A stretch of DNA of 64,000 nucleotides. Origin: Promicromonospora sp. MEB111. Lineage in GTDB: Bacteria; Actinomycetota; Actinomycetes; Actinomycetales; Cellulomonadaceae. Every line of letters starts with the position of its first letter. The stretch's first letter is position 1. The position numbers and the translations under genes are program-made. The notes below the pieces were generated by a model, which saw nothing but the letters and a program-made list of their open reading frames with translations, had not been told where the DNA came from and did not search any database. This document shows positions 10,699 through 16,303 of the stretch, piece after piece. The stretch lies in contig NZ_JARVSD010000008.1 of NCBI RefSeq assembly GCF_030209445.1, positions 62,001 through 126,000 of the forward strand. The letters are read 5' to 3'.

Positions 10699-11814
10699 TC
10701 AGGCGTCCGAGCCGGTCCGGGACGACAGCAGGCGGCGGAACGAGGCGAGCCGGGCTGCCCGGGCCTGCCGCTCGTCGTCGGGGGAGGCCTCGACCCAGTC
10801 GTCGAGGGCGCAGTCCGGGGCGTCCGCGAGGTGCGTGCAGCCGCGGGGGCACTCCTGCGCCACCTCGTTCAGGTCCTCGAACGCCTGCAGCAGGTGCGCC
10901 ACCTCGACGTGCGCCAGGCCGAACGAGCGCACGCCCGGCGTGTCGATCACCCAGCCGTCGAAGGCCTCGCCAGGCTCGGCGCCACCCTCGCCGGGCGCGC
11001 CGTCGTCCTCGAGCTCGCCCTCCGGGGCCCCGACCGGGAGCCGCAGCGCGACCGCCGACGTCGAGGTGTGCCGGCCGCGCCCCGTCACGTCGTTGACCAC
11101 CCCGGTGGCCCGCCTCGCCTCGGGCACCAGCGCGTTGATCAGCGTCGACTTGCCGACGCCCGAGTGCCCCACGAGCACCGACACCAGGCCGCGCAGCCGG
11201 TCGCGCACCTCCTCGACGGACTCCGGCGTGAGCACCACGGCGCCGTCGTCGCCCGACGGCGCCCGCTGCGTCACCACGACCTCGACCCCGAGCGGCTCGT
11301 AGAGCTCGCGCAGGTGGTCGGGGGAGGCGAGATCGGCCTTGGTCAGGCACAGGAGCACCGACATCCCGGCGTCGTAGGCGGCCACGACGCAGCGATCGAT
11401 CATGCCGGTGCGCGGCTCCGGCTGGGCCAGCGCGGTGACGATGACGAGCTGGTCCGCGTTGGCGACGACGATCCGCTCGTAGGGGTCGGTGTCGTCGGCG
11501 GTGCGGCGCAGCGTGGCAGTGCGCTCCTGGATGCGCACGATCCGCGCGAGCGACCCTTCCTCGCCGGAGGTGTCGCCCACGACGTCGACCCGGTCGCCGA
11601 CGACGACCCGCGTGCGGGTGAGCTCGCGCGCTTTCATGGCGGTCACTGTCAGCGCCTCGTCCACGAGCAGCGTGTACCGCCCGCGGTCCACGCCGGTGAC
11701 CAGCCCGGTGACGGCGTCCGAGTGCTCGGGGCGCTGTTTGGTCCGGGGCCGGGACCCGCGCTTGGACGGGCGGGACCTGAAGTCCGACTCGTCGCGGATG
11801 TCGCGCCGGCCCAT
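10699..11814 (-). CDS. rsgA: Ribosome small-subunit-dependent GTPase RsgA
   Basis: 371 residues. This is a circularly permuted GTPase: N-terminal OB-like domain with VVVGDRVDVVG, then the G4 motif TKAD, G1 GHSGVGKST and G3 DTPGVRSFG. The C-terminal zinc knuckle CPRGCTH...C is also present. RsgA binds 30S subunits and hydrolyses GTP during late assembly. The spacer between G2 (GRGRHTST) and G3 holds an acidic 30-residue insertion (GAPEGELEDDGAPGEGG). The ATG overlaps the aroA stop by 1 bp, giving translational coupling. Confidence 0.95.
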   Translation of the reverse strand: MGRRDIRDESDFRSRPSKRGSRPRTKQRPEHSDAVTGLVTGVDRGRYTLLVDEALTVTAMKARELTRTRVVVGDRVDVVGDTSGEEGSLARIVRIQERTATLRRTADDTDPYERIVVANADQLVIVTALAQPEPRTGMIDRCVVAAYDAGMSVLLCLTKADLASPDHLRELYEPLGVEVVVTQRAPSGDDGAVVLTPESVEEVRDRLRGLVSVLVGHSGVGKSTLINALVPEARRATGVVNDVTGRGRHTSTSAVALRLPVGAPEGELEDDGAPGEGGAEPGEAFDGWVIDTPGVRSFGLAHVEVAHLLQAFEDLNEVAQECPRGCTHLADAPDCALDDWVEASPDDERQARAARLASFRRLLSSRTGSDA

Positions 11815-13130
11815 CAGCCCAGCATGCCCAGCCACATGCCCGTGAAGTCGGGCAAGGTCTTGGCCGTGGTGCCGATATTCTCCACCAGCACCCCTGGCAC
11901 GCGCAGGCCGAGCAGCGCGGCCGAGGTGGCCATGCGGTGGTCGGCGTACGTGCGCACGACGTCGCCGCGCAGCGGCCGCGGCGTGATGACCAGGCCGTCC
12001 CGGGTCTCCTCCGCCTGCCCGCCGAGCCGCGTGATCTCGCGGGCCAGCGCGGCCAGGCGGTCGGTCTCGTGACCCCGCAGGTGCGCGATGCCGCGCAACC
12101 GGGAGGGCGAGTCGGCGAGGGCCGCCAGCGCGGCGAACGTCGGTGCGAGCTCGCCGCCGGCGTGCAGGTCGACGTCGATCCCGTGGATCTCGCCCGTCCC
12201 GGTCACGGACAGGACGCCGTCGGCCAGGGTGGACGTGCCGCCCATGCGCTCCAGCAGCTCGGGCACCATGGCGCCCGGCTGGGTGGTCAGGGTCGGCCAG
12301 CCGGGGACCCGTACCGTGCCGCCCGCGACGAGGGCCGACGCGAGGAACGGTGCCGCGTTGGACAGGTCGGGCTCGACGCGCACGTCGCGGCCGGCGATGG
12401 GGCCGGGGCGCACGCTCCAGATGCCGTCCCGCGAGTCGTCGACCTCGACGCCGACGTCGCGCAGCGTCGCGACCGTCATCTCGATGTGGGGCAGGCTCGG
12501 CAGGGTGGCGCCGATGTGCCGCAGCGTGAGGCCACGCTCGTAACGCGCGGCGGCGAGGAGCAGCCCGGACACGAACTGCGAGGACCCCGAGGCGTCGACG
12601 TCCACGGAGCCGCCCGGCACGCTGCCGCGGCCCTCGACGGTGAAGGGGAGGTAGCTCGGCAGGTCGCCGGTGTCGCCCGTGCCCTCCGGGTCGTGCACCG
12701 TGATGCCGAGGGCGCGCAGCGCGGCGAGCACCGGCAGCATCGGCCGCACGCGGGCCTCGGGGTCGCCGTCGAACCGGACCGGGCCGTCGGCGAGGGCGGC
12801 GAACGGCGGCAGGAACCGCATCACCGTGCCGGCCAGGCCGGTGTCGACCTCGGTGCCGCCGGTGACGGGCCCCGGCGTGACGTGCAGCGTGCTCGGCTGG
12901 TCGCCCTCCTCGATCCGCGCGCCGAGGGCGCGCAGGGCGCCGATCATCAGGTCCGCGTCCCGGCTGCGCAGGGCGCCGCGCAGGGTGCCCGGGGAGTCCG
13001 CGAGGGCGGCGAGCACCAGGAGCCGGTTGGTCAGCGACTTGCTGCCGGGTACCTCGACCGTCGCGTCCAGCGGCGCGCCGGCGAGCGGCGCCTCCCATGT
13101 CGGTGCGGGCGCGGTGGTCGAAGAAGTCAT
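11814..13130 (-). CDS. aroA: 3-phosphoshikimate 1-carboxyvinyltransferase (EPSP synthase)
   Basis: 438 residues. It joins phosphoenolpyruvate to shikimate-3-phosphate, the sixth step of the shikimate pathway. [18 protein letters not shown] is the N-terminal substrate-binding motif, [13 protein letters not shown] is the conserved glycine/arginine loop, and LRGHETDRL plus the C-terminal [13 protein letters not shown] complete the active site. The first gene of an aroA-rsgA-endonuclease V-like operon, an arrangement seen widely in actinobacteria. Confidence 0.95.
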
Positions 13131-13221: not shown

Positions 13222-13695
13222 TCACGCCTCGGCGGCCGCGGCCTTCTTCTCCGCGCGCGCCGCGCGAGCCTGCTGGACGCGCCACGACATGCCCGGCCGG
13301 CCCTCCAGGTCCGCACCCGCGATGAGAGCGGCGCCGACCGAGGCGAGGTTGTGCAGGAACCGGTCGGTGCGCGCGGGCCGCTCCGCCTTGGGTGCGGTGA
13401 AGGGCTGGTTCACGACGGCGAGCGGCAGCGTCAGCAGCGCGAGGGCGAGGGCGGAGGCGCGCGGCGCCTTGCCCAGCGCGAGCAGCGTGCCCGCCGTGGC
13501 GGTCGCGATCCCGTGCGCGCGCACGAGCGTGGCGACCTGCTTCTCGCTGAGCGGCTCGGCACCGAGTGCCTTGGTCGCCAGGGCCGATCCCGTGCGGGCG
13601 GCGGCCACGTGCTCGCTCGGCTTCCGGGCAGCCTGCACGCCGTCGTAGATGAACGAGGAGGCCAGCAGCGGTCGCGCGATGTGTCGAAGCAGCAT
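13222..13695 (-). CDS. DoxX-family membrane protein
   Basis: 157 residues from the ATG at 13695 ([19 protein letters not shown]). That N-terminus, a [18 protein letters not shown] segment and the [17 protein letters not shown] segment are typical DoxX membrane helices. The C-terminus is highly basic and Ala-rich ([14 protein letters not shown]). In mycobacteria DoxX-type proteins take part in membrane redox complexes with SodA and SseA. The gene is divergent from the sigR operon, which responds to thiol oxidation, so a redox role is plausible but inferred. Confidence 0.8.
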
Positions 13696-13751
13696 GGCTC
13701 CACCTTGGCAGATGCGGGCCGCGGTCGCAGCAGGATGCCGCGCGCGCCGCC

Positions 13752-13778
13752 GGGAATTCGAGGCCGTGGACGGCGGTT
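13752..13778 (+). promoter_or_regulatory. SigR/SigH-type promoter of sigR-rsrA
   Basis: GGGAAT at 13752-13757 and GTT at 13776-13778 are separated by exactly 18 bp, matching the known consensus for thiol-stress sigma factors (GGAAT-N18/19-GTT). Transcription would start about 13785, next to the GTG at 13788 that opens a long in-frame extension of sigR. This implies autoregulation. Confidence 0.8.
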
Positions 13779-14072
13779 GAAGCGGACGTGGAGCAATGCC
13801 TCGAGAAGGATGCGGTGAACGACACGGTGATCGGCACGGTGACAAACGCAACAACCAGCCCGGAGACCAGCGGCCTGCCCGGTGCGACGGCAGGTTCGTC
13901 GGCGGTCGCGCAGAGCGCTCCCCTGATGTTCGGAGCAGTCCCGACGCACCTCCTGGACGCCGGTACCGACTCGGCGAAGGGCACGGCGGACGTCCTGTCC
14001 GGCGCCGCCTCGAGCGCTTTCGGCGCCGTTCTGGCGAACACCGGCTGGCCGACGCGGCTAGGCTCAAGGGCG

Positions 14073-14846
14073 ATGACTGACACTTCCCGTGAGCAGAACC
14101 AGGGCGCAGGCGCCGATGCCGGCAGCGCCGACGTCGAGGCGCGCCCCGGCGAGGGTGCGAGCGAGGCCGTCGTCGGGACCACGGGACCGACCGAGGGCAC
14201 CGACGTGACCACCGACGTCGACCCCGAGGACGCCGAGGGAACCGAGCGGTCCCCCCAGGAGGAGGACTCGACGGCCCGCGCCGCGCGGTTCGAGCGGGAC
14301 GCCCTGCAGTACCTCGACCAGCTGTACTCCGCCGCGCTGCGCATGACGCGCAACCCCGCGGACGCGGAGGACCTGGTGCAGGAGACGTTCGCCAAGGCGT
14401 TCGCGGCGTTCCACCAGTACCGGCCGGGCACCAACCTGAAGGCCTGGCTGTACCGGATCCTCACGAACACGTTCATCAACAGCTACCGCAAGAAGCAGCG
14501 CGAGCCGCAGCAGTCCCAGGCGGAGGACGTCGAGGACTGGCAGATCGCGCGCGCGGCGTCGCACACGTCGCGCGGCCTGCGCTCGGCCGAGGCCGAGGCG
14601 CTGGACCGGCTCCCGGACAGCGATGTGAAGCGGGCGCTCGCCGAGCTCCCGGAGGACCGTCGGATGGTCGTCTACTACGCCGACGTCGAGGGCTTCCCCT
14701 ACAAGGAGATCGCGGAGATCATGGGGACGCCGATCGGGACCGTCATGTCCCGTCTGCACCGCGGACGCCGGCAGCTGCGTGAGCTCCTCGCCGACTACGC
14801 CGCTCAGCGAGGACTCGTCAGCCAGGCGCCCGGAGGTGCGCAGTGA
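14073..14846 (+). CDS. sigR: RNA polymerase sigma factor SigR/SigH, thiol-oxidative stress ECF family
   Basis: 257 residues from the ATG at 14073 with an AAGGG site. After about 65 acidic residues, region 2 reads [19 protein letters not shown], with [17 protein letters not shown] and [24 protein letters not shown]. Region 4 contains [41 protein letters not shown]. This is the SigR group that controls thioredoxin and mycothiol genes. The frame stays open upstream to a GTG at 13788, adding 95 residues; in Streptomyces an upstream start produces an unstable, stress-induced long isoform. The stop overlaps rsrA by 4 bp. Confidence 0.93.
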
Positions 14847-15127
14847 ACAACATCAAACCCGTACCGCACGACACGGCGGGGGAGTCCGAGTGCGAACACG
14901 CACTGACGCACCTGTACGAGTACCTGGACTCCGAGATGACGCCGGACGACGAGCAGCGCATGCGCGCCCACGTCGCCCACTGCTCGCCGTGCCTGGCGGA
15001 GCTGAGCGTCGAGGACCTGGTCAAGCAGCTCGTGAAGCGGTCGTGCAGCGAGCGCGCGCCGGACACCCTGCGCGTACGGATCCACGAGCAGCTGACGGTG
15101 ATGTCAGTGGTCTCGGTGGCCGACTGA
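14843..15127 (+). CDS. rsrA: Mycothiol-system zinc anti-sigma factor RsrA
   Basis: 94 residues from a GTG that overlaps the sigR stop (GTGA). The ZAS motif is clear: an early Cys in [16 protein letters not shown], then HVAHCSPC (H-x3-C-x2-C). In its relatives these residues bind zinc and form a disulfide on oxidation, releasing SigR. The short length and position directly after sigR confirm the assignment. A terminator follows within 25 bp. Confidence 0.93.
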
Positions 15128-15204: not shown

Positions 15205-15279
15205 TCAGGCGTTGGGACGCTTGCCGTGGTTGGCGGCCGAGCCCTTGCGGCTACGGCGCTTGCGACCGCGCTTGCTCAT
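15205..15279 (-). CDS. 50S ribosomal protein bL37
   Basis: A 24-codon gene. The minus strand reads MSKRGRKRRSRK, then GSAANHGKRPNA and TGA. This matches the tiny lysine/arginine-rich bL37 protein found by structure in mycobacterial ribosomes, including the conserved ANHGKRPN C-terminus. An AGGAG site lies 6 bp upstream of the ATG. It is too short for most gene finders. It stands alone and converges with sigR-rsrA across the terminator. Confidence 0.92.
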   Translation of the reverse strand: MSKRGRKRRSRKGSAANHGKRPNA

Positions 15280-15369: not shown

Positions 15370-15410
15370 ACGCGATATATCGTGTCTGGCATCAACGCGA
15401 TATATCGCGT
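15370..15410. promoter_or_regulatory. Twin palindromic operators, probably for the PadR regulator
   Basis: ACGCGATATATCGTGT (15370-15385) and the perfect palindrome ACGCGATATATCGCGT (15395-15410) are two copies of the same 16-bp box, 25 bp centre to centre. They end 26 bp before the start of the first DUF4097 gene. The A/T core inside a GC-rich genome, two near-identical copies and a PadR gene in the same operon point to autoregulation. Confidence 0.75.
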
Positions 15411-15436: not shown

Positions 15437-16303
15437 ATGAGCACGGACAGCTGGACCGTCACCGGTCCGCAGACCATCGAGCTGAGCGACGTGACCACCG
15501 TGGACGCCCACGTCGTCGACGGCCGGCTGGACGTCGTCGCCCACGACGAGCCCGTCGTCCGCGTCGAGGTGCACTCGGTCGAGGGCCGGTCCCTGGAGGT
15601 CCGCCTCGAGGACGGCCGCCTGGTCATCGAGCACGAGAGCGGCCTCAGCGGCTGGGGCTCGTTCATGAAGCGGTTCGCCGACTTCGGCGGCAAGGCACGC
15701 GCCGACATCCACGTCGCGGTACCCGCCGGCACCGCGGTGCGCCTGGGCACGATCCGCGGCGAGTGCCTCCTGGCGGGCACGACGGCCGGGGCGTCCGCGT
15801 CCACCGTCTCCGGGTCCCTGCTGGTCTCCCGCACGGCCGGCGACCTCAGGCTGAACACCGTCTCCGGCGAGGTGACGGTCCGCGACCACGTGGGCGACAT
15901 CACGAGCAATACCGTGTCCGCCGACGTCGTGGTGAGCGGGTCCGCCGAGTCCGTCGTGTCGTCGTCGGTCTCCGGGGACGTGACGATCGACCTGGCGACC
16001 CAGCCGCGGTCGGTCAAGGTCAACTCGGTGTCCGGGAACCTGCTGCTGCGCGTGCCGGACGACGGCGCGGTGGCCGTGTCCGCGCAGAGTGTCAGCGGGC
16101 GCGTGACGGTGGGCGGCGCCCAGTTCTCCGGCGGCGGCGGTGCCACGTTCTCCGGCGTCGGCCGCACCGATGCCGGGCCTGCCGGCCCGGGGACCACCCG
16201 GCTGCGGGCCACCAGCGTCTCCGGCGAGGTCACCGTCGTCGGCTTCCCGCAGGACGCCCCCGTCGACGCCACCCCCGCGGACCACTCGACCGTGGAGCTG
16301 TGA
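15437..16303 (+). CDS. DUF4097-family beta-solenoid protein
   Basis: 288 residues. After an N-terminal strand-rich part (WTVTGPQTIELSDVTTVDAHVV) the protein has repeated VSG-containing strands (STVSGSLLV, NTVSGEVTV, SSVSGDVTI, NSVSGNLLL, QSVSGRVTV, TSVSGEVTV) about 20 residues apart. This is the adhesin-like right-handed beta-helix of DUF4097. There is no signal peptide, so it is probably cytoplasmic or membrane-peripheral. It is first in a three-gene operon; its stop overlaps the PadR start (ATGA). Confidence 0.85.
   Translation: MSTDSWTVTGPQTIELSDVTTVDAHVVDGRLDVVAHDEPVVRVEVHSVEGRSLEVRLEDGRLVIEHESGLSGWGSFMKRFADFGGKARADIHVAVPAGTAVRLGTIRGECLLAGTTAGASASTVSGSLLVSRTAGDLRLNTVSGEVTVRDHVGDITSNTVSADVVVSGSAESVVSSSVSGDVTIDLATQPRSVKVNSVSGNLLLRVPDDGAVAVSAQSVSGRVTVGGAQFSGGGGATFSGVGRTDAGPAGPGTTRLRATSVSGEVTVVGFPQDAPVDATPADHSTVEL

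Follow-up and report, generated by a model that had tools for sequence, protein, structure and literature searches.

The sigR gene of Promicromonospora sp. MEB111 is probably (at roughly three chances in four) controlled by a leaderless form of the SigR/SigR' two-isoform switch, in which one promoter (p1) would give the short sigma factor and a second, stress-fired promoter (p2) an unstable long form. This leaderless SigR'-like isoform, already advanced in the first-pass annotation, is supported by the sequence, namely by the promoter, the start codon locked to it, the reading frame and the conservation of the arrangement in 72 of 72 genomes. In the proposed mechanism, the vegetative p1, with its TAGGCT box, would produce transcripts beginning at or near the ATG at 14073, and these would yield the short sigma factor. 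Thiol stress would inactivate RsrA, and the SigR so freed would fire p2 (GGGAAT-N18-GTT), and the resulting transcript would begin on the GTG at 13788 or no more than a few bases away, the ribosome starting at this 5' end. The product of this message would be SigR with 95 extra residues, probably unstructured; it would probably boost the response and then be removed, by analogy with the Clp-degraded SigR' of Streptomyces. We infer translation of the long form from the GTG at 13788 on the basis of the sequence, and its instability through Clp on the basis of the analogy. Promoter choice would then, on the best reading, be isoform choice, each form being made by leaderless initiation.

The sigR locus and its two candidate promoters

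The gene at 14073 in the window (the whole stretch of 64,000 nucleotides that was analysed) is a SigR/SigH thiol-stress ECF sigma factor: the translation of its long form matches TIGR02947 (SigR/SigH, SigH_actino) with 361.2 bits against a cutoff of 251.55. The short isoform occupies positions 14073 to 14846 of the plus strand. Its stop is overlapped by the start of rsrA (14843 to 15127, plus strand), which encodes the adjoining zinc anti-sigma factor; this open reading frame matches the RsrA profile TIGR03988 (83.6 bits, cutoff 62.5) and the HxxxCxxC motif is legible in its translation. Upstream, a gene that by eye looks like DoxX (13222 to 13695, minus strand) diverges from the long sigR form, so that p2 lies inside a short divergent intergenic space, and aroA is found farther away on the minus strand (11814 to 13130). 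End-to-end matches to the whole long form were limited, in the search of named genomes, to Promicromonospora iranensis and P. thailandica.

The SigR-type autopromoter p2 is read directly on the plus strand at 13752 to 13778, as GGGAAT (13752 to 13757), an 18-nucleotide spacer and GTT (13776 to 13778). The GTG predicted to start the long isoform (13788 to 13790) comes 9 nt after the GTT and is in frame with sigR. From there the frame is open for 95 codons (13788 to 14072, plus strand), which make up the N-terminal extension, up to the ATG at 14073. All these positions and the open frame agree with the first-pass annotation, which had also argued that such an overlap of promoter, start and frame is unlikely to be due to chance. 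That argument holds: the exact motif has only 11 sites (8 forward and 3 reverse) in the 6.23-Mb genome and its reversed control one, which makes a chance copy just upstream of sigR unlikely, and the start codon is locked to the GTT in 72 of 72 genomes. The same annotation had placed the start point at about 13785, at or near the GTG; the proximity to the GTG stands, while the family-wide lock would move the position itself to 13788 or a base next to it. The distance between the GTT motif and the start point is deduced from the locked offset. The accessible portions of PMC3489674, PMC4340878, PMC12960844 and PMC5288332 do not say how far a start point lies from a SigR-type -10 motif. The dependence of p2 on SigR is likewise deduced from its motif.

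The short form is preceded by a -10-like box, TAGGCT, at 14059 to 14064 of the plus strand, 8 nt before its ATG. In all 72 family genomes, a search for TANNNT-N8-ATG/GTG in frame finds such a box with exactly 8 nt between it and the start codon of the short form (TAGGCT in 69, TACGCT in 2 and TACTCT in 1), and for this reason both isoforms may be leaderless. A scan for the sigma-70 consensus returned no full promoter in positions 13690 to 14100 of the window. The SigR' model requires a separate promoter for the short form, of which the conserved -10-like box is a candidate element.

Among the open reading frames listed downstream of the 11 exact motif sites of this genome, no Clp gene was recognised by eye. 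One of the promoter-like sites elsewhere in the genome (L271 / L205, C32:180932-180970) reads GGGAAT-N18-GTT with an ATG exactly 9 nt on; this ATG opens a frame of 271 codons with the look, by eye, of an F420-type oxidoreductase. Another, also outside the window (L268, C11:199144-199182), reads GGGAAC-N18-GTT and is followed by an ATG 9 nt later; roughly 90 nt downstream of this site comes the match to an ECF paralogue (L019) that is 41% identical to SigR. This paralogue may be a second ECF gene read in leaderless form from an ECF promoter. Beyond rsrA, the minus strand encodes a 24-residue protein, MSKRGRKRRSRKGSAANHGKRPNA (15205 to 15279), which resembles the small ribosomal protein bL37. 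The palindrome CGATATATCG occurs twice (15373 to 15382 and 15398 to 15407) before a gene at 15437, beyond which there is a regulator that by eye resembles PadR; judged by eye, the palindromes between 15373 and 15407 are likely operators.

Distribution of the locked start in the family and beyond

A sigR match at E <= 1e-55 was obtained in 194 of 200 family genomes. Seventy-two of these 194 were examined, covering 22 of 25 genera: 13 from the genus, 17 best-match loci, 40 picked for genus spread among the places listed, and 2 more. The p2 motif (GGAAT-N18/19-GTT) was called blind to the start codon. All 72 genomes have a SigR-type promoter, an in-frame ATG or GTG 8-10 nt after the GTT and an open frame. 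The hexamer is GGGAAT in 66 of them and CGGAAT in 6, the spacer is of 18 or 19 nt, and the extension ranges from 20 to 102 codons. The offset of the start from the GTT is 9 nt in 58 genomes, 10 nt in 11 and 8 nt in 3, whereas at the other offsets of the next 60 nt an ATG or GTG in any frame is found in about 2.5 of 72 genomes per offset on average. GTG is the start codon in 53 cases and ATG in 19, these two codons being the ones that the survey looked for.

The open frame alone was discarded as evidence, because 57 of the 72 genomes have frame +2 open as well; in a single GC-rich genome, an open frame of such a length says little by itself. The non-random part is that the start codon is locked to the GTT and in frame. 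An initial pass, with a slightly stricter motif, had parsed 93 loci, five of them without the strict motif, and had found the start in frame and the frame open in 88 of the 88 genus and family loci that had it. Five loci (L003, L094, L157, L175 and L178) had been left out of that pass since their core was not parsed; the 72-genome survey dropped none. Among the loci of the initial pass, the offset stays at 8-10 nt with spacers of 18 and 19 nt alike, and being constant whatever the spacer it behaves as a transcription start would. The family-wide lock thus suggests that the p2 transcript starts at or next to the GTG at 13788. Among the named relatives, one, Timonella senegalensis (L094), which we assume to belong to the same family, lacks the promoter; the set of named relatives overlaps the 72-genome sample. 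On this comparative evidence, p2 with its locked start is general to the sampled family.

Outside the family, 93 distinct loci, a few of which are unplaced metagenome bins, were assigned long starts by simple and loose rules, so that the counts are rough: 88 have a predicted long start and 5 have none. Thirty of these starts lie 7-11 nt after the GTT (27 of them at 8-10 nt) and 58 lie farther downstream, behind a stretch resembling a Shine-Dalgarno (SD) sequence. The latter group includes a Streptacidiphilus locus (L118) and three loci that genome size suggests are Streptomyces-like (L248, L251 and L252), whose predicted, SD-led long start is situated 44-60 nt after the GTT, in agreement with the published SigR' as far as the available text of PMC5472188 describes it. 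Across actinobacteria, what varies would therefore seem to be the route by which the long start is reached.

Constraint on the extension and the competing readings

All 13 genomes of the genus that were searched have sigR, and each retains the promoter, the reading frame and the sequence GTT-GA-N7-GTGGAG. The distance from GTG to ATG varies between 225 and 306 nt and is always a multiple of three; the 13 extensions hold no stop in frame 0, 73 in frame +1 and 2 in frame +2. Stops or frameshifts in relatives were what the first-pass annotation had named as contrary evidence, and the frame is intact both in the 13 genomes of the genus and in all 72 sampled from the family. Within the genus, pN/pS is as high as 0.655 for the whole extension, a point against the long isoform; it is 0.672 for the short-form linker and 0.025 for the sigma domain. 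Overall, the extension evolves much as the short-form linker does and far faster than the sigma domain.

Two blocks on the plus strand stand out for constraint on their amino acids. The block FGAVP(T/A)HLL (13929 to 13955) has a pS of 0.40 and a pN of 0.04 in the genus, values that mark it as being under strong constraint at the protein level. A 12-residue block (14031 to 14066; pS 0.21, pN 0.04) is, by the same measure, clearly constrained in its amino acids, and it overlaps a promoter-like box, as its LGS codons hold the -10-like box of p1. Finally, codons 1-19 (13788 to 13844, plus strand) are conserved at silent sites too in the genus alignment: columns 1-18 have a pS of about 0.09, the 9-column windows that follow, up to the 12-residue block, one of 0.33-0.55, and this silent-site conservation breaks off sharply at codon 19. 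In the two 9-column windows of codons 2-19, pS is 0.09 and 0.09 and pN 0.08 and 0.16. Conservation there is about as strong at silent as at amino-acid sites, so the stretch alone does not show coding. An RNA structure was considered for this 5' stretch and rejected, as positions 13788-13847 have a z-score of -0.10 and the 13 sequences contain no compensatory pair.

Several readings may be weighed against these patterns. One is that positions 13788-14072 are an untranslated leader of p2, the short SigR alone being made and the open frame being an accident of GC richness. The frequently open frame +2, the overall pN/pS and the conservation of the 5' 57 nt as DNA in the genus would suit a leader. 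Against it stand the in-frame ATG or GTG that all 72 genomes have at GTT+8-10, the protein-level constraint on FGAVPAHLL, and indels in threes with 73 stops in frame +1 and none in frame 0, and we regard it as very improbable. The main rival within the long-isoform idea is instead that translation begins at the GTG of codon 10 (13815 to 13817, plus strand), an alternative in-frame start that follows the SD-like AGAAGGA; the long isoform would then have 86 extra residues, and the first 27 nt would be a short leader. All 13 genus genomes share AGAAGGA and this GTG without variation, the DNA motif is unchanged even in the genome where codon 6 has turned from Glu to Lys (L004), and the silent-site constraint of codons 2-19 also fits. 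The spacing from AAGGA to the GTG of codon 10 is, however, merely 4 nt, and all 72 genomes, from 22 genera, keep an in-frame start codon at GTT+8-10, so that the codon-10 start seems quite unlikely.

The extension was also considered as a conserved domain, a candidate that was set aside: a profile of the genus extension has no match outside the genus at E <= 0.01 (13 of 200 genomes match, with 26 candidates scored per genome, among the matches listed), and AlphaFold gives residues 1-158 of the long form a pLDDT below 50. The extension is accordingly predicted by the model to be disordered.

The N-terminal end of the long form is marked by cysteine. Cys4 (codon TGC, 13797 to 13799, plus strand) is a Cys in 13 of 13 genus genomes. 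Over the 72 family genomes, residues 2-7 contain 48 Cys among 432 positions against 2 among the other 3480 positions of the extension, although these counts come from related sequences and are not independent events. Forty-four of the 48 are at residue 3 or 4, and their codons are TGC (38) and TGT (10). Such a Cys is found in 48 of the 72 genomes and is missing from 24; it occurs in at least one genome of 19 of 22 genera, the sampled genomes of three genera (g3, g11 and g15) being without it, and is missing from some genomes of eight others (g6, g7, g8, g9, g14, g20, g21 and g24). In other families, residues 2-8 have a Cys in 17 of 88 loci, and the 1936 residues that follow contain 9. The bias is a lead rather than a mechanism, and the open-access literature listings returned no report of a near-N-terminal Cys in SigR. 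A further motif, [LVI][ED][RK] in residues 3-11, is enriched both in the family (17 of 72 loci; mean 0.7 and maximum 3 in 200 shuffles) and elsewhere (19 of 88 loci; shuffle mean 1.4, maximum 5). As a shared N-terminal motif it was rejected, because it is present in a minority of loci and was chosen post hoc; it stands as a lead only.

The Cys bias bears on a reading in which the long form is made but does not serve mainly as a short-lived feedback product: the extension would alter RsrA binding or promoter choice, or sense thiols through its Cys. The packing of Cys into residues 2-7 and the conservation of FGAVPAHLL in the genus would be in keeping with such a function, whereas the 24 family genomes without the Cys and an extension that is predicted to be disordered and differs between genera speak against it. 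This altered function is compatible with the leaderless start of the preferred reading, and we consider it unlikely. Rather unlikely, too, is the more specific conjecture that the Cys makes the stress-induced isoform a second thiol sensor within the sigma factor itself. Oxidation or mycothiolation of the Cys, or how much charged Cys-tRNA is supplied at the leaderless start, would in that case set the amount or the survival of SigR', and the long form would read, independently of RsrA, how far the thiol pool has recovered. The sharp bias at the front end would offer a site, simple to mutate, for asking whether the sigma factor, besides RsrA, senses thiols.

Comparison with known systems and implications

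The closest precedent is the Streptomyces SigR', an unstable isoform derived from sigRp2 and started at an upstream ATG between two promoters (Kim et al. 2009, as reported in the accessible parts of PMC5472188 and PMC4921905). Its extension of 55-58 residues makes SigR' a Clp substrate (same sources), and the short SigR is translated from a GTC codon behind a strong RBS (PMC5472188, in its accessible part). The two systems share, within what these texts cover, the upstream SigR-type promoter, the in-frame upstream start and rsrA in the operon. In Streptomyces the stable short form also has its own promoter farther downstream, to which the -10-like box before the ATG at 14073 may correspond. 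Unlike in Streptomyces, both starts of the present system look leaderless and the extension has 20-102 residues rather than 55-58.

According to the available portion of PMC4633059, leaderless initiation in mycobacteria has a 5'-terminal ATG or GTG as its necessary and sufficient condition. The sequence suggests a 5'-terminal ATG or GTG here as well, and applying the mycobacterial 5'-RTG rule to Promicromonospora is an extrapolation. What differs from the mycobacterial case is that leaderless initiation is here predicted to let the choice of promoter decide which isoform of a single gene is made. The SigH-RshA system of Corynebacterium has the same pair of sigma and anti-sigma factors and the same type of promoter consensus (PMC3489674, consulted in part). 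The part of that source covering C. glutamicum assigns the mapped sigH promoters to SigA and places a SigH-type promoter before rshA, whereas the SigR-type promoter of the present locus is upstream of sigR itself.

The leaderless arrangement of the known SigR' isoform system appears to be new, and no leaderless isoform of SigR came up in the open-access literature listings. The locked starts suggest that the annotated starts of sigR in this family merit a check. If the leaderless two-isoform reading is true, then across a bacterial family each promoter would deliver its own start codon at the 5' end of the message, and promoter choice alone would set which protein is made.
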